Assembly (NCBI GenBank): GCA_025351325.1
Contig: JANXWE010000188.1
Location: 1-42,062 of the forward strand
Reading direction: 5' to 3'
Origin: Fimbriiglobus sp.
GTDB taxonomy: Bacteria; Planctomycetota; Planctomycetia; Gemmatales; Gemmataceae
Length of the DNA: 42,062 nt
Below, in pieces: positions 1,052-36,549 of the stretch. The notes under the pieces are model-generated. The model made no database searches. It was not told the DNA's origin and saw nothing but the letters and a program-made list of their open reading frames with translations. How positions within the stretch are numbered: position 1 is the first letter of the stretch; each line of letters begins with the position of its first letter. Made by a program: the position numbers and the translations under genes.

Positions 1052-2353
1052 CTATTCGTTCTCGGCGGCCGCCTCTTCCAGATGCTCCGCGAACAGTTGC
1101 AAAAATCCCTGGAAGTCGCCGGCGATTTTCGAGCGGGACGCGCCGTCATGACGGTGGAGGATGACCTGACCGGCGGCGCCTCCCTTGGCGGGCGCCAAAT
1201 CGATGCAAAGCGAATCCCCGCCACCGTCGCTGGCGAATGGAAGCCATTTCGGGTTCCACCAATCGGGACGAATCCCTGCGTCCGGCTGGCCCTTTTTCTT
1301 CGTAAACTCACCTGCATCAACTAGTTTCTTCCATATCCGCCATTCCTTGACCACATCCTCTAAGGACAACAGGGAGAACGCCGCATCGAGGTCGGCGAAA
1401 TCATCCGGGAATAAGCTGTCTGCGCCGGCCTTTTGGCCGTTGTGAATCCGAAATGAATCCTGGAGCGCTGGCGGGAACGCGATGCCCAGCGCCTCTTCGC
1501 ACTTGGCGATCTGCGCTGCGGTTGCCGGTTTTTGCAGTGATGGCTTGACGTCACGTTTGGCTTTCAACGCCTTTCCAACTCGCTTCCACAACGTCGGCAC
1601 ATCGTCGGCCAGCTTCACCGGAGCGGCGGTCGGCCGCTTGCCAGCGAGTGCGGCTTCCAGAACGGAAACGACTTTGGACGCTTTCTCTTTCTTCGCGACG
1701 TCCAGAGCGGTTTGGCCCGGATAGTTGCGGTGATCCGCCGGCAGGCGAAGATGCGGATCGGCACCGACTCGCAGCAGGGCTTCGGTCGTGTCAACACGCT
1801 TGCTCTGAGCCGCAAGAATCAACGCCGTTCCCCAGCGGGAGATCTCGTTCACGTCCGCCCCCGACGCTGCCAGCATCTCGATCATCGCGGGCGAACCCGT
1901 TCTGGCAGCCCCGACCAAGGCTTGATCATTCGACTTCGCACCGGCCGCCAAGAGTTCCTTCATCACCGCCTCGTGGCCGGGCTTTTTCTCCCGTGTGGAT
2001 TTACTCAAAGGAGTGACGCCGTCTTTGTCCTTGTAGTTCACATCGGCCCCAGCAGCGAGCAACAGTTTTGCGATGCCGACATCGCCTGCCTGGGCGGCAA
2101 GGCCGAGGGGAGTTTCTTTTTCTTCCCCGTTCTTGACCGCCGGCGCGTTGACATCGGCACCGGCCGCAATCAAGACTTCGACGACGGCAGCGCCGCCGCC
2201 TTCATGGATGGCGTAGTGCGGCGGCGCGAACTCGTTGCTGAAGCCGAGGACATGTTTGTTGATGGGCATCCCGCTAGCAATAGCACGCCGCATAGCGGTT
2301 GCGTTCTTGGTTGCGACGGCGGAGTGAAAGTCGTTTTGCCAAGATCCGGCCAT
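1052..2353 (-). CDS. Ankyrin-repeat protein with C-terminal SMI1/KNR4 domain
   Basis: A 433-aa two-part protein. Residues from about 20 to 235 are ankyrin repeats, seen as repeated AAGADVN, ETPLGLAAQAGD and LLLAAGADVN patterns of about 33 residues. After a charged linker, residues from about 270 to the end form an SMI1/KNR4 (SUKH) domain, seen as EEALGIAFPPALQDSFRIHN, a Trp-rich segment, FASDGGGDSLCIDL and a closing acidic helix. SUKH domains are known as immunity proteins of contact-dependent or polymorphic toxins and as protein-binding modules. The start chosen is ATG 2353 (MAGSWQND), with GAGAG upstream. An in-frame start at 2479 would add a basic, low-complexity 42-residue extension unlike an ankyrin N-terminus. 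No cognate toxin is adjacent. Confidence 0.85.
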   Translation of the reverse strand: MAGSWQNDFHSAVATKNATAMRRAIASGMPINKHVLGFSNEFAPPHYAIHEGGGAAVVEVLIAAGADVNAPAVKNGEEKETPLGLAAQAGDVGIAKLLLAAGADVNYKDKDGVTPLSKSTREKKPGHEAVMKELLAAGAKSNDQALVGAARTGSPAMIEMLAASGADVNEISRWGTALILAAQSKRVDTTEALLRVGADPHLRLPADHRNYPGQTALDVAKKEKASKVVSVLEAALAGKRPTAAPVKLADDVPTLWKRVGKALKAKRDVKPSLQKPATAAQIAKCEEALGIAFPPALQDSFRIHNGQKAGADSLFPDDFADLDAAFSLLSLEDVVKEWRIWKKLVDAGEFTKKKGQPDAGIRPDWWNPKWLPFASDGGGDSLCIDLAPAKGGAAGQVILHRHDGASRSKIAGDFQGFLQLFAEHLEEAAAENE

Positions 2354-2445
2354 GAAGATCTCTCGTGGATTTGCCTGCGAACGACCAAGCTCAGGGGCCG
2401 GCGGGGCTACTGAGCCTTGCACCCGCCGTCGGCTGCGACGTCTGG

Positions 2446-2793
2446 TTAAGCCTGCTTGTCGAGCGTTCGGAGACGCCAACAGTCACGGATGATGGATACG
2501 ACGAACAGGAGACCGAGCGCTGCGTGGAACGAGCCGACGACCGCCGTACCCCAAGGTCGGACAACGACATCGACAAGTAACGCAGCTCCCCAACAGACGA
2601 GCGGAAACATCGGGATGACCGGTAAGAGGCTCACGCCTCCTCGCTGCCCCTCCGAGATGCCGCGGCGGGTAGCCGATGCCGCGTGACCCGCTATTGCCGC
2701 GATGCCCCAGAGCAACCAAACGACAAACACCTCAATCAACAGTCCCCACCAAGGCATCACCATTCCGTTGCGTCCTCCGCCGAAAGAATCCAT
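2446..2793 (-). CDS. Small integral membrane protein (115 aa)
   Basis: Three hydrophobic segments are visible: WWGLLIEVFVVWLLWGIAAI near the N-terminus, then LLPVIPMFPLVCWGAALLVDVVV, then VGSFHAALGLLFVVSIIRD, followed by a short basic tail ending TLDKQA. I know no function. The start is uncertain: ATG 2793 (MDSFGGG) is used, while ATG 2763 or 2757 would begin directly before the first membrane segment. A longer in-frame extension to 2988 overlaps the IS110 remnant on the other strand and looks non-coding. It is 92 bp upstream of the ankyrin gene on the same strand. Confidence 0.5.
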   Translation of the reverse strand: MDSFGGGRNGMVMPWWGLLIEVFVVWLLWGIAAIAGHAASATRRGISEGQRGGVSLLPVIPMFPLVCWGAALLVDVVVRPWGTAVVGSFHAALGLLFVVSIIRDCWRLRTLDKQA

Positions 2794-2850
2794 GCATGCC
2801 GGGTTTCGGGTATCTTCGGAGGTGGCCCGATTCCCACACTGGAGCATGCG

Positions 2851-2967
2851 ATGACGACCACCATTCTGGCCATCGATCGCGGCAAGTTCAACAGTGTTAT
2901 CTGCGCTTTCGACTCGGACATCCGCGAAGCGTCGTTCCGCACGGTGAAGATGACCCGGCCATCCTGA
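2851..2967 (+). pseudogene. IS110-type transposase N-terminal fragment
   Basis: The 38-residue reading frame starts MTTTILAIDRGKFNSVIC and stops after FRTVKMTRPS. The ILAID-GK-NSV pattern matches the start of the RuvC-like DEDD domain of IS110-family transposases, whose first catalytic Asp lies in that strand. Intact IS110 transposases are about 300-400 aa, so about nine tenths of the gene is missing. No terminal repeats are expected for this family. The rest of 2794-3210 holds no other gene I can support. A GGGCCT-TCG-AGGCCC hairpin lies near 3010. Confidence 0.5.
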
Positions 2968-3210
2968 GGGCCGAACTGCTGCGACCACCCGTTGTTAGCA
3001 TCGGGAAGGGCCTTCGAGGCCCGACGTCTGCGTTGACAATTGGGAATGAATCACTGCTTGCAAATTCGAGGACGGCCATCGCAACCGGTGCGCGCCGAAA
3101 TAGATGGAGAGCAGCGGTCAGAGGTGTGGTACTGCTTACCGCATGGGGAAGTTCTTGGGGGGGCGACTGGTGAACCGCGCCGAACTGCCCCTCGCATCTT
3201 CCCCGATGAG

Positions 3211-3576
3211 TCATTCCACGCCGTCGCTGAACCGGAAGACGCAGAGGGTATGGCCGTTGAGGTCTTCGAGCGTGAATTGCCGGTAGCCCCACGGCTTGTC
3301 CTCGGGCTCTTCCAGAATCCGCACCCCTTTGGCCTTTAGGGTTGCGCAGAACTCATCCACCTCGTCCACATACATCATGCAGTTGTTCGCGGGGATCGGC
3401 CCCTTCGTCTTGCGAAAGTAGAAGTTGGCCCCATCGCACAGCGCCGAGCCCGCTGGTCGGCCTCGGCGGCGAAGAAGTCTAAGTTCACCGACCTTGCCAT
3501 CCCATACGCCCTTCCGCCGAACGACTAAGCTCACCGGCCCGGTCGCAATCAGCGGCCTCATCCCATCCAGAACCAA
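3211..3576 (-). CDS. VOC-family (glyoxalase-like) protein, N-terminal half degenerate
   Basis: The C-terminal part (from ANFYFRKTKGPIPANN to VFRFSDGVE) is a clear vicinal-oxygen-chelate beta-alpha-beta-beta-beta module, with the characteristic MYVDEVDEF, GVRILEEPEDKPWGYRQF and LEDLNGHTLCVFRF segments. Members include glyoxalases, dioxygenases and antibiotic-binding proteins. The first about 45 residues do not resemble the matching N-terminal module: the usual FY..LGF segment is missing and the stretch LRLLRRRGRPAGS looks like out-of-frame sequence. In another frame the same DNA reads LDFFAAEADQRARR, which looks more protein-like, so a frameshift or truncation is likely. A functional product is doubtful. 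Confidence 0.5.
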   Translation of the reverse strand: MVLDGMRPLIATGPVSLVVRRKGVWDGKVGELRLLRRRGRPAGSALCDGANFYFRKTKGPIPANNCMMYVDEVDEFCATLKAKGVRILEEPEDKPWGYRQFTLEDLNGHTLCVFRFSDGVE

Positions 3577-3633
3577 TTCCTGCGGCCAGATCCGGTGCGG
3601 CGCCGGGTTCGGCCTGCCTCCGGGAAGTGGAAA

Positions 3634-4161
3634 CTATTTCTTGGGGTCAACCGCAGCGGGTGTTTCAGGCGGTGGGCCAATAAGCACGGCCACGTAGGGT
3701 TGCCCTGGCACCGTCTTACTTTGTTCGTCTGCCGAAATCTCGCGACTACCCGGCTCGTCCGCCAGTGAAACCGTCACCCAGCCACCAGCGGGCCCCATCC
3801 TTGAAGGAGAACCTTGATACGGCCATCCTGACGTTCACCAATTTGCCCGGATACACCACAACCCCCTTCCCAAACTGGCGTGGGATCTTCATGTTTATTC
3901 CCCTTTTCGACAAGAAGTACCCATGCGGTTGCGGCGGTGATTTTGGACTCGCCGCGTTTTTTCGATTTGCTCCGCGATCCAAGATTCGACGACCGGCCGA
4001 TCCTTTTCGAGGGCCACCGAGTCAGTGGGGAAGATGATCTTGACGTACACTCGGTTGGATGTTGGTTGGGCCGCTTTCTTCGGTGTCGGCCCGTCCGCTT
4101 TCACTCCGTAGGGAACCAGAGTCAGCATGCCGACGATCAAAGCCAATAATTGCCGAGGCAC
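3634..4161 (-). pseudogene. Secreted-protein gene split by two compensating frameshifts
   Basis: Three protein-like segments join into one about 175-residue product. Segment 1 (ATG 4161) has a signal peptide (MPRQLLALIVGMLTLVPYG) and runs through RVYVKIIFPTDSVALEKDRP to AEQIEK. It then meets a stop at 3895. Skipping one base at the six-T run 3957-3962 opens a second frame with GESKITAATAWVLLVEKG and DGRIKVLLQGWGP. Adding one base near the four-C run 3793-3796 returns to the first frame as AGGWVTVSLADEPG, ending AAVDPKK at 3634. The outer ends are in the same frame (528 bases). Both sites are homopolymers, so sequencing error is as likely as real decay. I do not recognise the family. Confidence 0.55.
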
Positions 4162-4620
4162 AACGCACCCCCTTGTGTGACGCCTTATGTTGCCGAACTT
4201 GTCATTCGACCCAACTCACTCTGCCGAATTTGACCGTAGAGTTCGACTATCTCAGATTCAACTTGTCGTCAGAGAACCTCACTACTTCCCCGACTTCAAA
4301 TCCTCCCAGCTACGATGCGGCAGTCAACAAAAAATGTCGAACTTTGATCCAAGAATCAGCGGACGTTCTTCAAAACTTCCAGAACTCTATTCATAGTCAC
4401 CATTTAACAATTGTAGTATAATCGTCGTTCTGTCTAGTATTCTTGTTTCCGTAGCTTCCGTTGGTTCCGCAGAGGGGAGGGGGGTACTCTCCGCGGAAAC
4501 AAGAACAGGTAACAGAATATCGGGAGTGGGCCAATTCGGAATCGTTGCGAACCTCATACTTCGGGTTGCACGGGATCGCCAAACTTGCGCCAATAAGGGG
4601 ACAGCCAAGGAGGGCGCAAC
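4162..4620. other. 459-bp gene-free stretch, probable leader of the 4621 gene
   Basis: I see no convincing coding region. The stretch is less GC-rich than its neighbours. It contains a TATAAT hexamer at 4417-4422 without a good -35 partner at 17 bp, three 9-base tandem imperfect copies of the form gNTTCCGyN at 4445-4471, and the inverted repeat listed separately. A good ribosome site (AAGGAGGG) just before 4621 belongs to the next gene. Confidence 0.4.
4440..4505. promoter_or_regulatory. Perfect 12-bp inverted repeat with an alternative stem
   Basis: TTCTTGTTTCCG (4440-4451) is the exact reverse complement of CGGAAACAAGAA (4494-4505), with 42 bases between. Inside, GTTCCGCAGAG (4464-4474) can pair, with bulges, to the CTCTCCGCGG segment (4487-4496) that overlaps the right arm, so the two stems exclude each other. 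There is no T-tract. It could be an attenuator-like leader, an operator, or chance. Confidence 0.35.
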
Positions 4621-5628
4621 ATGTCGATCGAACTATTTCCATCCCGATCCACGCGATTTCGAACCGACGAGACCCCACCGCCGCAATCGCGGCCGGATTT
4701 GGCGTTTCTCGCCCGGCCACTGTTCCTGCGACTGACTGAAGCGCTGCAATTAGTCGCCACGTTGCTCCACGAATGCCGAAAGATGGAGAATCGGGCCACC
4801 CGGCACGAACGGAGCTGGGGCGTGCCCAAGCTCTTCTTCGCGGATCGCACGGCACAGGAAGACTGGCAGGCGAAACAGGTTCCTCAGGCCACATTCCCGG
4901 AACCATTTGTGAGCTTGCTGGGAACGTCGTTTCCCAAGCTGATGGATGCCTGGGATCGCCTGCCCGATCTGCTCGACGATGCCTTATCGCTGCTGGCAGA
5001 ATCGCTGGACGTTCGCCGGATGGCCCGGGCCATCCTAGGTTTCCAAGAAGCGGCTCTGGCCGTGCCCCAAGCGCATGAACTCGCCGGGATCTTGGGGATG
5101 CCCGAAGAAGAAATCTGGCTTGTGATTCATCCGACCGCAAGGGCTGGGTTCCGTGTCGCCCTTGAAGGAGTCGCCGACATCGCCCAGCTTCACGTACTGT
5201 TAGCAGAACAGCTCAGTGGCGACCCCGCACGCGGGTATTTGGCCGGCCGGCGACCCCACTTCGATGTACTTGACGCTTGCCAGTTAAGCATACCGACCGA
5301 AGGTGTCGTTGCGACGAGCCGATTCCAGTTTTACCGACCCGAAGCGCTGCGGCCCGACGGTACTTTGCCGGTAGGATTCGCCGGAACTTCTAACTGGTAC
5401 TGGGGCCATGAGACGCTGAATGTCGTGCCACAGCAACACGGCGAACGGATCCTGCTCATTGGGGAAGCGGTGCTACCAAAGACTTGGGAAGTGAACCGCC
5501 GATACTCGCGGATTGCAGCGGAAGCGAAGGTACTGGATGTCCTGAGATCGGCCGAGGTCGAAAGTTGGTTGCGTACTCGCTGTTCGGAGTACCGCCCACC
5601 CTCTATCCCGATGAAACGGGCCGCGTAG
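4621..5628 (+). CDS. Conserved-looking hypothetical protein (335 aa)
   Basis: I do not recognise this protein. It is cytoplasmic in appearance, with no signal peptide or membrane helix. Its N-terminal third is helical (FLRLTEALQLVATLLHECRK), the middle is rich in Leu/Asp helices and includes LAGILGMPEEEIWLVIHPTA, and the C-terminal part has beta-type segments with many aromatics (SRFQFYRPEAL, GTSNWYWGHETLNVVP). The ATG at 4621 is well supported by AAGGAGGG eight bases upstream. The 42-bp gap to the metallo-hydrolase downstream suggests a shared transcript. It may be under control of the structured leader 4440-4505. Confidence 0.8.
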   Translation: MSIELFPSRSTRFRTDETPPPQSRPDLAFLARPLFLRLTEALQLVATLLHECRKMENRATRHERSWGVPKLFFADRTAQEDWQAKQVPQATFPEPFVSLLGTSFPKLMDAWDRLPDLLDDALSLLAESLDVRRMARAILGFQEAALAVPQAHELAGILGMPEEEIWLVIHPTARAGFRVALEGVADIAQLHVLLAEQLSGDPARGYLAGRRPHFDVLDACQLSIPTEGVVATSRFQFYRPEALRPDGTLPVGFAGTSNWYWGHETLNVVPQQHGERILLIGEAVLPKTWEVNRRYSRIAAEAKVLDVLRSAEVESWLRTRCSEYRPPSIPMKRAA

Positions 5629-28342: not shown

Positions 28343-30223
28343 TCACGGTTTCAGCTTCGACAAATTCTCGATCCACCCCGTCACGGAGGGTTCCGTCCAT
28401 TGAAACACTGCCAAGCCGGGGATGACTCCGAGAATCACGGTTAGGATCGCCAGCGGAATCAGCACGGTGGCTTCGCGGGCACTGACGTCGGGGTACTTCG
28501 CAGTCAACGGGTTGACACCGAGAAACACCCGTTGCCAGGCCCAAAGCAAATAACCTGCTGTGAGGATCGTGGCTAGCATCGACAGCGTGCCGAGGAACCA
28601 ACAGTAATTCCACGCGGCGAGCATCACTTGGAACTCGCCGACGAAGCCGCAAAGCCCGGGTAATCCCATTGAGGCGAAGAACAAGATCGCACTCAGCCCG
28701 GAGTAAACGGGCATCGGTTCTTTCAAGCCGCCGAAACGGTCGAGGTCGCGGTGATGAGCCCGGTCGTAGATCACCCCGACGACGAAAAAGAGGCCGGCAG
28801 AAGTAATGCCGTGCGACAGCATTTGGAACAGCGCCCCGTTGACACCCCACTGCCAATACTCGCTTTTCGTACCGGAACTCCAGCAGGCCAAACCGAGTAC
28901 GACGTAGCCCATGTGCGACACGGATGAATAGGCCAGCAGCCGCTTGAAGTCGGTCTGGCCCATGGCCACGAGGGCACCATAGACGATGCCGATGACGCCG
29001 ATGAGGCCAACGTACCACGACAGTTGATCGGCCGCCCACGGGCAAATTGGGAAGGCGAAGCGGAGTAAGCCGTAGCCACCGAGTTTGAGGAGCACGCCGG
29101 CGAGGATCATCGAAATCGGCGTCGGCGCTTCGACGTGAGCATCGGGCAGCCAACTGTGCAACGGCACGATCGGCACCTTCACCGCGAAGCCGAGGATAAG
29201 CAGGGCGAAGAGGATGTACTGGTGGGTCGGCGTGCAAATCGACTGCGATTTGAGGTGAGCAATGGCCGCCTCACGGTTCACGCCGGGGGCGAACAGCGGT
29301 ACGGAATTCGGGGTGTTCGCCTTCGAGTCCCGCGTCGTCAAACGGTCTTCTTGGCCACTGAGCACGAGCATCACGGCCTGCCCGACTTTCGATAATGTCT
29401 GGGCATCGAAGGTGTGAACCTCCGCTTGGGCGTTCACCTGTTCGGTATTCCAATCCTGGTGGGCTCGTTGCACTTGCCGGACTTTCGCACGTGCCGTTTC
29501 TTGGGGGACGAAGTCGCGGACGTCGACCGTGTAGAGCGAGATGATCGCGGCGAGTAAGCCGACGCTGCCGACCAAGGTGTAGATGACGAACTTGATGGCG
29601 GCGTACTTGCGACGCTGGCCGCCCCAGAGACCGATGAGGAAAAACATCGGCATCAACATGACTTCGTAGAAGACGTAAAACAGGAAGAGATCGAGGGAGA
29701 GGAAGGCTCCGAGGACGCCACTCTCCAGGATGAGAATCAGGATCAAGTAGCCACGGAGGTTGGTTTCGATCTTCCAACTGGCGATGAGTGCAAAGAACGT
29801 AACTAGTGCCGTGAGCAACACGAGGGCGAGGCTGATGCCATCGACGCCGAGGGCGTAATCGACGTCGAACTTCGACACCCAAGGCCGGCGGACAATGAGG
29901 TCGTCGCTGAGGAAAGATCGGTTGGTCGCGGTGCGCTCCAGCGCTTCATCGGCCCGGTGATCGAGCCGGGTATCGGGGTGGTACAGGCTACGGGTGTCCC
30001 GGTCGGATTGGGAATCGAGCAGGCGGTGGTAATCGACGAGCGTGCAGAGTGCGACGGCCAGAGTCCCGGCGGCTCCGAACAAGGCGAGCCAGCGCATCCC
30101 TTCGCGGAATCGGCTCGGCCAGACGAGCAGGATCAGTGCGAAAATTGCCGGAAGGAAGACGAGCAGCGTGAGCTGGAGCATGTCCAGTTCGCGTTCGGCC
30201 GGGGGGAAAAACGGTGCGAGCAT
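28343..30223 (-). CDS. nuoM: NADH-quinone oxidoreductase subunit M, with long inserts
   Basis: This antiporter-like membrane subunit of complex I is 626 aa, against about 510 usually. Conserved marks are LGVDGISLALVLL, the key Glu-187 in FYEVMLMPMFF, Lys-349 in FAVKVPIVPLHSWLPDAHVEAPTPIS, and later AYSSVSHMGYV. Two hydrophilic inserts explain the length: about residues 66-116 before the LGVDGIS strand, and about 238-333 between membrane helices 6 and 7, where E. coli has roughly 25 residues. The ATG at 30223 follows GGAAGG; an inner ATG at 30181 is possible. It is last in the nuoJKLM run, and no nuoN follows. Confidence 0.93.
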   Translation of the reverse strand: MLAPFFPPAERELDMLQLTLLVFLPAIFALILLVWPSRFREGMRWLALFGAAGTLAVALCTLVDYHRLLDSQSDRDTRSLYHPDTRLDHRADEALERTATNRSFLSDDLIVRRPWVSKFDVDYALGVDGISLALVLLTALVTFFALIASWKIETNLRGYLILILILESGVLGAFLSLDLFLFYVFYEVMLMPMFFLIGLWGGQRRKYAAIKFVIYTLVGSVGLLAAIISLYTVDVRDFVPQETARAKVRQVQRAHQDWNTEQVNAQAEVHTFDAQTLSKVGQAVMLVLSGQEDRLTTRDSKANTPNSVPLFAPGVNREAAIAHLKSQSICTPTHQYILFALLILGFAVKVPIVPLHSWLPDAHVEAPTPISMILAGVLLKLGGYGLLRFAFPICPWAADQLSWYVGLIGVIGIVYGALVAMGQTDFKRLLAYSSVSHMGYVVLGLACWSSGTKSEYWQWGVNGALFQMLSHGITSAGLFFVVGVIYDRAHHRDLDRFGGLKEPMPVYSGLSAILFFASMGLPGLCGFVGEFQVMLAAWNYCWFLGTLSMLATILTAGYLLWAWQRVFLGVNPLTAKYPDVSAREATVLIPLAILTVILGVIPGLAVFQWTEPSVTGWIENLSKLKP

Positions 30224-30241
30224 TCCGGGGACATCCTTCCA

Positions 30242-32377
30242 TCAACGGGCGAGAACGCTCAGCATCCCGAGCAAACCGATCAGGGTCAACACCAATACCA
30301 ACACGTACTGCCGCACTTGCCCCGTTTGGGTTCGTCGCAAAGCGTGGCCACCGCGTTGAACCAACGACGCCAAGCCACTCATGGCCCCATCGAGTGTGAA
30401 CCGACGGGGCCGCTCTGGGGAACTCCGATCCGCACTCGCGGCTTGTTCGGCCAGCTTTTGCGTCCCGCGTAAGAAGACGAAATCGTAAACGTCGTCGAAG
30501 TACCATCGTTTCGCCAACAGTCCGCGTGGTTCTTGCAATTGTGCGGCAGTCGGGGCGTGTCGTCCGTAGCGGCTCCAAGCGTATCCGGCACCGAGTACGC
30601 CGGCGAGCAGTGCCAACCCCCCCGCCACGACGTGGTATTCTTCTGCCAGAATGTGGGCATGCGAGAATGCAGGATGGTTGAGGATCGGTTCCGCTTCGTG
30701 GAGATGATGCCCGAGGTAACTCGCTTCCGCGTCCCAGAGGGGCCAGCCCCACGCCACACCGATGCTGCCCAGCGCGAGGATGATCAGAGGCCACTTCATC
30801 GACCAGGGTGACTCGCGGGCATGGTTGTAGACCGTGCGATTTCGCGGCTCACCGGCAAAGGCGAGGAACCAGAGTCGGAACATGTAGAAAGCCGTTAGCC
30901 CAGCCGTGAGCAGTGGCCCAAGGAAGAGCAGTGCGTGCAAATGGTTCGACAAACTGGCGCCCATGGCCGCTGACAGAATTTGATCCTTGGAGTACCAACC
31001 GCTGAAGAAAGGCATTCCCGAAATGGCCAGTACTCCGATGAGCATCGTGTACGCGGTGACCGGCATTTTGCGGCGCAGGCCACCCATTTGGCGGAGGTCT
31101 TGCTCCTCATGGCAACCGTGGATCACACTCCCGGCACCCAAGAATAGTAAGGCTTTGAAGAAAGCGTGGGTGAGTAGATGCAGTAGTCCTGCTGTCCAAG
31201 CACCGATGCCGAGGGCGAGCATCATCATGCCGAGTTGGCTGCAAGTGCTGAAGGCGAGGACACGTTTGATGTCGGTCATCACGAGTGCGATACTCGCTGA
31301 GACCAGCATGGTGATGAGGCCGCAGTAGGCGATGGTCAGGAAGACTTCCGGGGCGAAGAGGGGATAGCACCTTCCGGCGAGATAGACGCCGGCGGCCACC
31401 ATGGTCGCCGCGTGGATGAGTGCCGATACCGGCGTCGGCCCTTCCATGGCATCGGGGAGCCAAGTTTGGAGCGGGATCTGGGCCGACTTCCCAACGCAGC
31501 CGAGGAATAACCCCAACCCCATGAGAATCCAGAGTCCATGGGATAACTCAACTGGTTGCGAACCGCCGATTCGCCCTCCCAGCTCTTGGATATTCAATGT
31601 GCCAAACGAGGCGAAGGCGATGGCCATGGCGATGAGCAGACCGGCGTCGCCGACGCGGTTGACGAGGAACGCTTTGTTCGCCGCGGAACTGGCGCTCTTG
31701 CGTTCGTAGTAAAAGCCGATGAGGAAGAACGAGCAGACGCCGACCAGTTCCCAACCGACGAAGATTTGGAACAAGTTGTCGGCGATCAGCAAGTTCAACA
31801 TGCTGAACGCGAACAGCGACAAGTACAAGTAGAATCGGCCGAAGCGACCGCGCCGGGTGGTGTGAGCGACGTGATCGTCGACGGTGTCCTCCGTTTCCCG
31901 TTTCATGTAGCCGAGCGAGTAAATGAAAATCAGGGAGCCGATGCCGGTGACCATGGTGAACATCAACGCCGTCAGTTGGTCGATGTGGTACCCAATCTCC
32001 AAAGCGGTGGCAGGGCGGATCGTTTTGGAAGTGCCGATGCGGAGCCAATCGCCGCGTTCGCTCCATCGCGTGGCGAATTCCTGAGGAAAGTCGTGGTAGG
32101 TGTGAGCCTCTTCGTGGAATTGGAGCAGCCCCCATACGGACAATCCAAACGAACCGAGCAAAAAGAGGATGCTGAGGGTACCACCGGTCTTGAGCGGTTG
32201 ATCGCCACCGAAGAGCCAGTAAATCCGCGATGCGAAACTATCGGTGCCACTGCGGGATCGGGCCATGTTTCGAATGGTGGCCGCGAACAGCAGTAACAGC
32301 ACCGGGATGAGCGGTAGTAGAGTCGCCACGAGGTAAGCGCGGCCGGGGTGTTCGGCGAAGTCGAAAGGGTTGAACAC
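30242..32377 (-). CDS. nuoL: NADH-quinone oxidoreductase subunit L
   Basis: This 711-aa distal antiporter-like subunit of complex I has many membrane helices and a long C-terminal part. Conserved features include FVGWELVGVCSFFLIGFYYER with the functional Glu, the WLPDAMEGPTPVSALIHAATMVAAG segment with its surrounding charged residues, and FSTCSQLGMMMLALG. The GTG at 32377 lies two bases after the nuoK stop, the typical coupled arrangement; the frame continues upstream only as antisense-like low-complexity sequence. E. coli NuoL is 613 aa; the extra length is in the loop after helix 1 (AHTYHDFPQEFATRWSERGD) and near the C-terminus. Confidence 0.95.
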   Translation of the reverse strand: MFNPFDFAEHPGRAYLVATLLPLIPVLLLLFAATIRNMARSRSGTDSFASRIYWLFGGDQPLKTGGTLSILFLLGSFGLSVWGLLQFHEEAHTYHDFPQEFATRWSERGDWLRIGTSKTIRPATALEIGYHIDQLTALMFTMVTGIGSLIFIYSLGYMKRETEDTVDDHVAHTTRRGRFGRFYLYLSLFAFSMLNLLIADNLFQIFVGWELVGVCSFFLIGFYYERKSASSAANKAFLVNRVGDAGLLIAMAIAFASFGTLNIQELGGRIGGSQPVELSHGLWILMGLGLFLGCVGKSAQIPLQTWLPDAMEGPTPVSALIHAATMVAAGVYLAGRCYPLFAPEVFLTIAYCGLITMLVSASIALVMTDIKRVLAFSTCSQLGMMMLALGIGAWTAGLLHLLTHAFFKALLFLGAGSVIHGCHEEQDLRQMGGLRRKMPVTAYTMLIGVLAISGMPFFSGWYSKDQILSAAMGASLSNHLHALLFLGPLLTAGLTAFYMFRLWFLAFAGEPRNRTVYNHARESPWSMKWPLIILALGSIGVAWGWPLWDAEASYLGHHLHEAEPILNHPAFSHAHILAEEYHVVAGGLALLAGVLGAGYAWSRYGRHAPTAAQLQEPRGLLAKRWYFDDVYDFVFLRGTQKLAEQAASADRSSPERPRRFTLDGAMSGLASLVQRGGHALRRTQTGQVRQYVLVLVLTLIGLLGMLSVLAR

Positions 32378-32379
32378 GG

Positions 32380-32694
32380 TTACCCTTTCAAGTCGTTGGC
32401 GGCGTCCACGTCCACGGTGGCGTGATTGTTGTAGAAGTTCAAGAAGATCGCGAGTGCCACCGCCGCTTCCGCCGCTGCTAAAACGATGACGATGATGGCG
32501 AAGACTTGGCCTTCGATCCGTAAGCCGGGAACAAAGCGGGCAGCGGCCACGAGGTTCAAATTTGCGGCGTTGAGAACGAGTTCGACGCCCATGAGCAGAC
32601 CGATGGCGTTCCGCTTGGTGATGAAGCACGCCACGCCGCAGGCGAAGAGAAACGCCGCGAGGATCTGGAACGGCGCGAGTCCGACGTCAGCCAT
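32380..32694 (-). CDS. nuoK: NADH-quinone oxidoreductase subunit K
   Basis: This 104-aa three-helix subunit of the complex I membrane arm has the conserved GLLMGVELVLNAANLNLVAA segment, whose Glu is in the proton path, and VIVLAAAEAAVALAIFL with the second Glu. The ATG at 32694 gives standard length and overlaps nuoJ by 8 bp. The longer upstream frame is the shadow of nuoJ. Confidence 0.95.
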   Translation of the reverse strand: MADVGLAPFQILAAFLFACGVACFITKRNAIGLLMGVELVLNAANLNLVAAARFVPGLRIEGQVFAIIVIVLAAAEAAVALAIFLNFYNNHATVDVDAANDLKG

Positions 32695-33241
32695 GCGATT
32701 CCACCTTGGCGGCTGGCCGCCGTTTGGCCCGGGCCAAATAGGCCGCCGCGACGAGGACGACGAGCAAGTGAATCGACACGATCTCGAACGGCAACAGAAA
32801 CGCTGTTCCACGTTCGTCGGGAACACCCAGGAACGCTGCCCCGATTGGCCCGGCACTTGGGAGTGTGTCCACGTTCGATACTGGACTTGGTTGGGCCGCC
32901 CGCAACGAGAAGGTGACCAAAAATGCGAACAGCAAGCTGGCCACGCTTCCGCCGAGTATCCATTCGACGGGCTTGGTATGAATCCCCGCGAATGGGCCTT
33001 GGTTGGTAATCATGACGCCGAAGACCATGAGAACGAGGGTACCGCCGACATACACAATGAGCTGGGCCGCCCCGAGGAACTCCGCCCCGAGGAGAAAATA
33101 GCAGACCGCAATCCCGATGAGGGCACCGAGTAACCAGACCGCCGAACGGACGACACTGCGTGACAACACGACGCCAAGGGCGCTGAACGTCGTCGTCGCG
33201 GCGACGATGAGGAATAAAATGACCGGAAAAGACATCGCCAT
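32687..33241 (-). CDS. nuoJ: NADH-quinone oxidoreductase subunit J
   Basis: This 184-aa membrane subunit of complex I has five membrane helices and the recognisable NuoJ segment GAEFLGAAQLIVYVGGTLVLMVFGVMI, containing the flexible helix 3 with its pi-bulge. A periplasmic or cytoplasmic loop of about 35 residues (NVDTLPSAGPIGAAFLG) precedes the last helix. The ATG is 33241, or 33235 two codons later. The upstream neighbour is the divergently oriented TIGR02996 gene, so a promoter for the nuoJKLM unit should lie between 33242 and 33361; I see no clear one. Confidence 0.93.
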   Translation of the reverse strand: MAMSFPVILFLIVAATTTFSALGVVLSRSVVRSAVWLLGALIGIAVCYFLLGAEFLGAAQLIVYVGGTLVLMVFGVMITNQGPFAGIHTKPVEWILGGSVASLLFAFLVTFSLRAAQPSPVSNVDTLPSAGPIGAAFLGVPDERGTAFLLPFEIVSIHLLVVLVAAAYLARAKRRPAAKVESHG

Positions 33242-33361
33242 CCGGATGGTGAACAGTGGAAACGCCGAGACACAGTTGGCAGAACAGCAACGTCTTGGTA
33301 AGGGATAATCGGTATGGGATCGGTTTGCAAGTGACCGACTCTCGGTTGCCGAAAATTAGAC

Positions 33362-34732
33362 TTGCAGTTGGAAACCGTCGTGAACCGCGCTTCGCCCGAA
33401 TTGAAAGCCTTGTTGCAGCGTTGCCGGGAAGCCCCGGCCGACGACATGCCACGGCTCGTCTTGGCCGATTGGCTCGACGAGAACGGGGAATCGGATCGGG
33501 CGACGTTCGTCCGGGTGCAAATCGCCTTGAGCCATCCGACGGCCGACGCGGTGCAACAGCAGGAATGGAAAAGCTTGGAACAAAGCTTGTTGCGGGCGCA
33601 CGCGGACGAGTGGTTCGGCGATCTGCAATCGATCCTGAGCAGATTGCGGTACAGCAACGAATCGACCGGAGGCCTAAATCCGTTCGCCTGGGATGGGAGC
33701 AAAACGTTTCTCCGGGGGTTCATTCACTTCCAAATGTTCTCACAAAGTTGGCTGCTCGATCCCGATTTGCGAAACTGGTTGCGATCACCCGCCGGGGATT
33801 GGCTGGAGCAGGTCAACCTGAGCCGGTTGACTCCCGAAGCATTCGAGCAGTGCACGATTCCACCGGAGTATTCTGGCAAGATCAAGTTGAACCTCTCGGG
33901 CCAACCCGGAACGTATTGTGATCTGCAAACGTCGGCGCGGTTGAGTTCCCCCGTCGAATTTTCCGTGCAAGATTGGCAGCGATTCTTCCGATCCTCGAAT
34001 TTTCTCTCCGTCCGCTCACTCACCACGGACGGTGGACTAACGTTCCTCAATCAACTAGGTCAGGCCGATGTCCGCCGACTGGTGTCGCTCAAAATTCGGA
34101 ATTCGGAGTCGAGTGAAGCCGCGGCACGAATCCTAACGACGATCCCGTTCGAGTCGCTGTCGTCACTCGACTTCGGACCGGTCAGTGAGACCGCGTTGCG
34201 TGCCGTGGTGGCCTGCCCGTATTTGCGGAACCTCACGGAATGGAATTTGACCGGCAGCCCGATCGGCGACGCGGGCATGGTCGCCCTCTGTGAATCGTCC
34301 TTGGCCGAGTCGCTGAGCGAAGTGAGCTTTCAGAACACTGCCATTGGGGACGTGGGCATCCAAGCTCTCGTGCGGTCGCCGCTGTTTGCCAAGATGAACT
34401 CGGCCAGATTGAATTTGATGATGAACCGGATCGGCGACATAGGCGTTCAAGCACTGGCCGAAAGTGAGCAATTGTTACGTTACCGCGAGTTGGTGCTACG
34501 CGAGAACCGCTGTGGCGACGTTGGAGTTGCGGCCCTGGCCGACAGCGAGTTCGGGGCGAACCTGACGTACATCGACTTCTGGCGGAATCGCATCGCCGAC
34601 GCCGGCGCCGTGGCACTCGCCGGCGGGGAACAGTTGGGGAAGGTCGCCGACTTGTGCGTGAAAGAAAACGCGATTGGCCCCGACGGTGCCGCGGCCCTGT
34701 TCGAGCGATTCGGCGAGCGGGCCAAGGTCTGA
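33362..34732 (+). CDS. TIGR02996-domain protein with leucine-rich-type repeats
   Basis: This 456-aa protein starts with the planctomycete TIGR02996 domain (ELKALLQRCREAPADDMPRL, then VLADWLDENGESDRATFVRVQ), known mostly from large Gemmata paralogue families. The rest contains leucine-rich-type repeats of about 28 residues (GDAGMVALCESSLAES, GDVGIQALVRSPL, GDIGVQALAESEQLL, GDVGVAALADSEFG, ADAGAVALAGGEQLG), probably a solenoid for protein binding. The start taken is TTG 33362; TTG 33368 or GTG 33380 are alternatives. There is no signal peptide. It sits between the two halves of the complex I genes, on the opposite strand, and ends 9 bp from the next gene tail to tail. Confidence 0.88.
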   Translation: MQLETVVNRASPELKALLQRCREAPADDMPRLVLADWLDENGESDRATFVRVQIALSHPTADAVQQQEWKSLEQSLLRAHADEWFGDLQSILSRLRYSNESTGGLNPFAWDGSKTFLRGFIHFQMFSQSWLLDPDLRNWLRSPAGDWLEQVNLSRLTPEAFEQCTIPPEYSGKIKLNLSGQPGTYCDLQTSARLSSPVEFSVQDWQRFFRSSNFLSVRSLTTDGGLTFLNQLGQADVRRLVSLKIRNSESSEAAARILTTIPFESLSSLDFGPVSETALRAVVACPYLRNLTEWNLTGSPIGDAGMVALCESSLAESLSEVSFQNTAIGDVGIQALVRSPLFAKMNSARLNLMMNRIGDIGVQALAESEQLLRYRELVLRENRCGDVGVAALADSEFGANLTYIDFWRNRIADAGAVALAGGEQLGKVADLCVKENAIGPDGAAALFERFGERAKV

Positions 34733-34741
34733 TGGGCCGAT

Positions 34742-35356
34742 TCACAAGGCAGGAATTTGGCCCAGAACCATGGCGTTGAGGATGCTGAAGATCGGAACGG
34801 GAGTTCGAATGAAATATTCTGTGTTATCGACTGTGGCTTTGGCTCCATCGAGTCGCAAAAATCGCCAGAGAATCCCGGTGGTGACGACGCCATAAATTGG
34901 CCATTCGGGTATTCCCTCGGCGCGGTTGAACCGCTGTGCGGCTACCATTTCCGCCAAGCACTGCGGAATGCCGGCCAAAATGTCTTCCTTTTTGGCTTCC
35001 ATCAACATGCAGACCGGCGCTGTTAGTGCTAACTGCAGGGGATTGCGAGATAAAATGAAATCGCATCGACCGTTCAGCCCGACGGAAGGATCGACTGAAA
35101 ATTCGATCCCCGAGAAGAGGCTGATTGTATCGGGATGGCGTAGTTTCATCTCGATGAGCACCGGGGCGATCAGAAGCTCGGAACGACCTTTCTCGGTGTT
35201 CATGTTCTGTGAGAGTGGCAAGTACCGAATGAGTGTGGAAGCCAGATGCTCAGGCAACTCGATCTCTTCAACTCCCGAGAACAGATTCTCCCGTTCGATG
35301 ATCGTCAGGCCGATGTCGTGCTGGAGTTTCGAGATTGTGAAATCGCTGTAGGCCAT
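34742..35356 (-). CDS. PD-(D/E)XK-nuclease-like protein downstream of nuoH
   Basis: This 204-aa soluble protein has GRCDFILSRNP followed about 14 residues later by LMEAKKED, fitting the D-xn-E-x-K core of PD-(D/E)XK nuclease-like folds, with an acidic residue upstream (FSGIEFSVDP) as a possible third ligand. Similar proteins of this size occur in cyanobacteria and planctomycetes and are annotated as hypothetical. Nuclease activity is not shown and some members are inactive. GGAG precedes ATG 35356 well. It starts 29 bp after nuoH on the same strand, hence probably in the same transcript, at the place nuoI usually occupies. Confidence 0.65.
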   Translation of the reverse strand: MAYSDFTISKLQHDIGLTIIERENLFSGVEEIELPEHLASTLIRYLPLSQNMNTEKGRSELLIAPVLIEMKLRHPDTISLFSGIEFSVDPSVGLNGRCDFILSRNPLQLALTAPVCMLMEAKKEDILAGIPQCLAEMVAAQRFNRAEGIPEWPIYGVVTTGILWRFLRLDGAKATVDNTEYFIRTPVPIFSILNAMVLGQIPAL

Positions 35357-35385
35357 TGGTCTCTCCGTGTGAGGTCAAAATTATT

Positions 35386-36549
35386 CTATGCCCGCTTCCA
35401 CTCGCCTGGCACAGGCCGGAACAAACTCAGCCCCACGCCCAGCGCGAAGAGCACCGAGGCGCCCGCCAGTACGTAGCGGGTCTCTTCGCCGATGGCCGAA
35501 GCCAAGTAGAGTTGCCAGAGTCCGACCCCGATCACCAGGGCACAACCGATCGGCAGGAAGTATTTCAGGCAGGTCATCATGACCTGGTCGATGCGCAAGC
35601 GTGGCAGGCTCCAGCGCAGCCACATCATCACCAAGATCAGCAGGGTGCTCTTGCCGATGATGACGCCCGAATTCAGCAAGTTCCCCCACCAGTAGCCCAA
35701 GCGTTCGGTCGGTTCGAAGGGGAGAAATCCCGTGTGCCAGCCGCCGAGGAAGAGCAGCACGGCCAAGCTGCTGACGGCGAACATGCTGCCGTATTCGGCG
35801 AGGAAGAAGAAGCTCCACCGCAGTCCGCTGTACTCGGTGTGGAACCCGGCCACGAGTTCGCTCTCGGCCTCGGCGAGGTCGAAGGGTGCCCGCTTGCAAC
35901 TGGCCGTGGCGGTGATGAAGAACAGGAAGAACGCGACGAAACTGAACGGGTCGTGAAAGACCGCCCAGTTCCAGAACCAGCCGGTCTGCTGTTGACCCAT
36001 GAGCGTCAAACTCAGCGTGCCCGAGACACAAATCGGCACGACGACACTGAGCGAGCGTGGCACTTCATAACTGACAACTTGCGCCGCTTCGCGGATGCCA
36101 CCGAAGAGCGACCATTTGCTACCCGATGCGTACCCCGCGAGCATGACGCCGAACACTTCGCTCGAAAGTACGGCCAAAACGAAGAAGACGGCGATCGACA
36201 AATCTTGTGAGACTAATCCGTTGCCGAACGGGAGAGCGAGAAAACCGCAGAACGCGGCGCAAAATGCCAGATAGGGTGCGATTCTGAACAGGAACGAATC
36301 GGCCACGGCGGGTGTGGTGTCTTCTTTGGTGAGGAGTTTAATCCCGTCAGCAAGGGACTGCAACAATCCAAACGGGCCGGTGCGGGTTGGCCCGAGGCGG
36401 TCTTGCATCCGGGCCGAGACTTTCCGTTCGGCCCAAATGTAAAGCAGTGCCGAGGCACCCATGAAGCTGATGACCAGCGCGGCTGCCAGGAGTGCCAACA
36501 CAATGACCACTAACCAACTGGGCAGGTATTCCGATAGAAGTTCAGTCAT
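35386..36549 (-). CDS. nuoH: NADH-quinone oxidoreductase subunit H
   Basis: This 387-aa membrane subunit of complex I lies next to the quinone chamber. Signatures are AERKVSARMQDRLGPTRTGP with the quinone-side loop, LLQSLADGIKLLTKEDTTP, ASGSKWSLFGGIREAAQVVSYEVP and RAPFDLAEAESELVAGFHTEYS, which carries the coupling Glu and Asp residues. It is longer than E. coli NuoH (325 aa) by insertions around TLMGQQQTGWFWNWAVFHD and the C-terminus. The start is ATG 36549. The 90 bp divergent gap to the 36640 gene must hold its promoter. No nuoI follows, which normally accompanies nuoH. Confidence 0.95.
   Translation of the reverse strand: MTELLSEYLPSWLVVIVLALLAAALVISFMGASALLYIWAERKVSARMQDRLGPTRTGPFGLLQSLADGIKLLTKEDTTPAVADSFLFRIAPYLAFCAAFCGFLALPFGNGLVSQDLSIAVFFVLAVLSSEVFGVMLAGYASGSKWSLFGGIREAAQVVSYEVPRSLSVVVPICVSGTLSLTLMGQQQTGWFWNWAVFHDPFSFVAFFLFFITATASCKRAPFDLAEAESELVAGFHTEYSGLRWSFFFLAEYGSMFAVSSLAVLLFLGGWHTGFLPFEPTERLGYWWGNLLNSGVIIGKSTLLILVMMWLRWSLPRLRIDQVMMTCLKYFLPIGCALVIGVGLWQLYLASAIGEETRYVLAGASVLFALGVGLSLFRPVPGEWKRA

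Follow-up and report, generated by a model that had tools for sequence, protein, structure and literature searches.

A small gene that can be read as one protein only by changing frame twice, in opposite directions, raises the question of whether it is decoded in an unusual way, has recently been inactivated, or has been broken by errors in the assembled sequence. Such a gene lies on the minus strand at positions 3634..4161 of the window, by which we mean the whole 42,062-nucleotide stretch of Fimbriiglobus sp. DNA analysed here (contig JANXWE010000188.1). It starts with a GTG at 4161, stops at 3634 and is divided into three segments across two frames: an N-terminal segment in the starting frame (3964..4161), with a beginning that resembles a signal peptide by eye (VPRQLLALIVGMLTLVPYGVKA) and the first conserved block; a middle segment in the shifted frame (3795..3959), reading KRGESKITAATAWV...GRIKVLLQGW; and a C-terminal segment, again in the starting frame, that carries the stop codon (3634..3792). 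The frame changes at GAAAAAA (site 1, 3957..3963) and at GGGGCCC (site 2, 3790..3796), both written on the minus strand; the two indels are about 165 bases apart, the first +1 and the second -1, and the net frame is restored. The original prediction had placed the gene on this strand and at these coordinates, with shifts at a run of six T (3957-3962) and a run of four C (3793-3796, inside GGGCCCC at 3790-3796) that cancel each other, and all of this was borne out, the end frame being the same as the start frame. Ordinary translation in the starting frame from the GTG at 4161 yields 88 amino acids and ends at 3895.

The proposal that the three segments form one product was confirmed by intact relatives. 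A profile built from these matched the window three times and in order (3949-4146, 3789-3965 and 3652-3795), on the proposed frames and far above chance, with the N-terminal segment covering profile positions 5-72 (E 3.9e-20), the middle segment 67-129 (E 5.8e-14) and the C-terminal segment 128-175 (E 1.1e-13), and a larger profile recovered the same three pieces. The third frame is likewise open in the middle region (78 amino acids, 3746-3982); a product joining the N-terminal segment to it (KNAASPK...) was ruled out, as the relatives match the frame beginning KRGESKITAATAWV.

A search for the joined protein in related Gemmataceae, which had been suggested as a check, returned intact single-frame relatives: four of 95 genomes of the family were positive, namely G029, G064, G067 and the window's own genome. 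Within the order, the relatives profile was positive in 4 of 102 genomes, the window's own counted, a scan of genome contigs gave five loci among 24 candidate stretches (L017 and L018 being new), and a search of the phylum found the gene in 5 of 392 genomes, again counting our own, the others being G328, G367, G384 and G392, the last with two copies. With the G328 copy taken as the same as L017 from its contig position, the intact set comprises 11 copies from eight other genomes (two in G029, two in G064 that are fused in one ORF, G067, G328/L017, L018, two in G392, G367 and G384); G384 and G392 are single-contig genomes. The segments of the window are 57-77% identical to six tested copies other than that of G067, and 38-51% identical to the latter. 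These members (L003/L015, L012/L016, L017, L018, L005/L019, L099-L101 and L103) define a planctomycete family of small proteins with a signal-peptide-like start and the shared pattern YVKII...VESW...GRIKVLL.GW...DEPGSR...PYVAVLIGPPPE, and, unlike the window copy, each relative is one open frame. In G029 the intact family occurs as a tandem pair (L003 786-2016, minus), and in G064 the two copies are fused in-frame into one 375-aa ORF (L012 520-1647, plus). Distribution of the family in planctomycetes is patchy, and neither joined-protein nor profile searches found the gene in the three congeners examined. Furthermore, none of seven members searched against Pfam scored at or near the cut-off (best E 0.076), two members searched against NCBIfam matched no family, and PDB sequences gave no match at E up to 1. 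Our work thus reveals a planctomycete protein family without a match in Pfam, NCBIfam and PDB sequence searches. An AlphaFold model from seven sequences was poor (mean pLDDT 60, pTM 0.56) and its best PDB fold match was weak (E 0.03, TM 0.21), and we therefore claim no function for the family.

Alignment of the window with the 11 copies located the damage directly. Only two places had pairwise gaps that were not multiples of three: the window copy carries an additional base at GAAAAAA and lacks one at GGGGCCC, the exact base within each run being impossible to assign; the first five copies aligned alone gave the same two non-triplet gaps. Every intact copy keeps a single frame through both sites, and internal stops were found in none of the 11. 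Only the window copy has the A6 run of site 1, where the relatives mostly have codons of the CTC AAG AAG type. The frame breaks are therefore specific to this genome copy, rather than a conserved decoding feature. The segments themselves still resemble coding sequence. Compared in their own frames with seven copies, they gave dN/dS values of 0.13 to 0.58 (one undefined), with differences mostly at third codon positions, which is much the same range as, and not above, that of the intact copies among themselves (0.18 to 1.0 in 21 pairs). Moreover, no stop codon occurs in the 519 nt of the three segments examined; in a neutral simulation the first stop appeared after a median of 19 substitutions, with the 95% point at 80. 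This coding-type substitution and the lack of stops in the segments indicate that the break is either young or absent from the organism.

To place the two indels in context, frame breaks were counted with a codon-usage model in 37 stretches of the same genome, a draft of 382 contigs, amounting to 463 kb including the window. In a spiking test the scan detected 99 of 100 indels placed singly and, for pairs 170 nt apart, 77 of 100. A filter requiring that no start codon lie near the upstream stop flagged 8 of 108 junctions and proved weak, passing only 93 of 570 spiked indels, and the distance from junction to stop was used in its place. Among the 108 same-strand frame junctions the upstream stop lay within 12 nt in 76, at 13-30 nt in 21 and beyond 30 nt in 11, and the corresponding numbers for 99 detected spiked indels were 7, 17 and 75. 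From these figures we infer that real frame breaks account for about 15 junctions at most (11 divided by 75/99) in roughly 391 kb of predicted coding sequence, or around one per 26 kb, some of which would be overlapping genes. In addition, 12 of the 22 homopolymers of six or more bases in the window lie inside open ORFs, and those ORFs are unbroken. A raised rate of frame or homopolymer breaks in the assembly was looked for and not found, which speaks against a general indel problem, though this stretch may be a locally poor one.

The surroundings of the gene are different. Native-type coding is absent from the scan at 2276-3213 and 3446-4662, and within 1.4 kb of the broken gene, on its lower-coordinate side, lie two incomplete neighbours. 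One is the remnant of an IS110-type transposase (2770..2999, plus), which has 77% DNA identity to the start of a copy that this genome carries on contig C193; a single-base gap near 2955 in the gapped alignment breaks its frame, and similarity stops at 2999. The C193 copy (L097) matches PF01548 and seems, by eye, to be frame-broken itself. The other neighbour is a glyoxalase-like (VOC) gene (3211..3576, minus) that retains only the end of the domain, covering positions 77-120 of 121 in PF00903 (E 1.7e-7), whereas an intact relative in a different genome is matched over 6-120. By eye, the N-terminal part of this gene may also have a frame break, and an upstream frame may carry some of what is missing. 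Two breaks in a span of about 170 nt, next to two incomplete neighbours, constitute a local cluster.

Several explanations have to be weighed against these data. It is next to impossible that each segment is a small gene in its own right or that its frame is open by chance: the segments are short, lie in two frames and score near zero for native codon usage, the gene having an atypical usage that is invisible to the scan, but they tile one family profile in order and without gaps, and they are fused in a single frame in every relative found (11 copies). Homologues with each segment as an intact gene of its own, which would have contradicted the original prediction, thus did not appear. Programmed shifting had been among the options raised: ribosomal frameshifting or slippage of transcription at the two sites would then yield a full-length protein from broken DNA, and the gene does resemble such systems in that its shifts fall at short runs. 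A -1 slippery heptamer has the form X XXY YYZ, and site 2 fits it when the middle frame is read as G GGC CCG. Site 1 is followed by a fold that slightly outperforms shuffled sequences (z -1.71, 13 of 200 shuffles as good), and the segments look selected. However, the fold at site 2 gave z -0.63, neither downstream fold clearly surpassed its shuffles, and no clear stimulator was seen in them; with opposite shifts at two places in so small a gene, one inefficiency would moreover be multiplied by another. Shift and direction were conserved in none of the 11 copies, from eight genomes, and none of them has the A6 run, which makes programmed frameshifting very unlikely and leaves that option without support. 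Furthermore, the runs are only six A and four G/three C, compared with the nine A or T at which slippage in bacterial transcription is described in a review (PMC5009743). Antonov et al. (2013, PMC3711429) take a motif and a direction conserved among orthologues as the sign of recoding, and they regard singletons, unless these are orphan genes, as probable products of indel mutation or sequencing error. The window gene is like the singleton frame-transition genes of that study, with intact homologues, no shared shift motif and a single shifted member. A variant in which the gene carries two opposite indels and still yields the complete protein through a low level of slippage at each run is left standing by the selected appearance of the segments; we regard it as extremely improbable, and if true it would represent a natural two-site indel tolerance in a planctomycete.

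The main rival to a pseudogene is a gene that is intact in the organism, with both indels as local sequencing or assembly errors of the draft, paired sequencing errors having been another of the options first raised. This is a possible explanation, though on balance an unlikely one, and it draws on the mutual cancellation of two shifts at short runs, on the selected look of all three segments and on the draft state of the assembly, with its 382 contigs. Against it stand the rarity of breaks elsewhere, with 11 of 108 junctions in 463 kb resembling spiked frameshifts, the 12 long homopolymers within ORFs that remained open, and the state of the neighbours, in which truncations accompany the shifts, since base-level errors do not truncate.

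We therefore consider that the locus probably holds a gene inactivated not long ago and lying in a decaying patch. A decaying gene was one of the options originally offered and is now favoured, given that broken neighbours cluster beside it and that breaks are scarce elsewhere. The two lone non-triplet gaps against 11 copies, together with the profile tiling, support a pseudogene, as do the nearby IS110 remnant and end-only VOC domain in a genome where breaks are otherwise rare, and the 12 of 22 long homopolymers lying harmlessly in open ORFs. The gene also looks dispensable because it had no match in the three congeners examined. A once-intact gene for a small, predicted exported protein of a patchy planctomycete family would have been inactivated recently by a pair of real single-base indels in short runs of one base, presumably through slippage during replication once selection had relaxed. 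Translation from the GTG at 4161 would now depart from the native sequence past site 1 and end at the stop at 3895, and the resulting 88-residue product would have only its first 66-68 residues native. The presence of the indels in the organism, as distinct from the assembled sequence in which they are directly seen, their origin by slippage and the uselessness of the truncated product are parts of this account that we infer. Two points count against a pseudogene: relaxed selection has left no trace in either dN/dS or stops, and two cancelling indels also resemble a local error. If the gene is a pseudogene, the break must be young because that trace is absent and no stop has appeared. The window gene differs from a frameshifted pseudogene in having two cancelling indels instead of one and segments that are not yet degraded. 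The cause is an ordinary one and not a new decoding trick, and automatic annotation would probably report one or two truncated hypothetical proteins at the locus.

On the higher-coordinate side of the broken gene, a gene of 335 aa (4621-5628) and most of the remaining 42 kb are, by contrast, long open frames. The 335-aa protein, which had no match in Pfam or NCBIfam, is the sole neighbour for which all three congeners examined gave a convincing relative. Other tblastx matches between the window and congener stretches were short scattered pieces, and a comparison of occupied and empty sites was therefore impossible. Further along, at 28343-36549 on the minus strand, lie genes that by eye resemble NADH dehydrogenase subunits; these flank two other ORFs, at 33362-34732 (plus) and 34742-35356 (minus).
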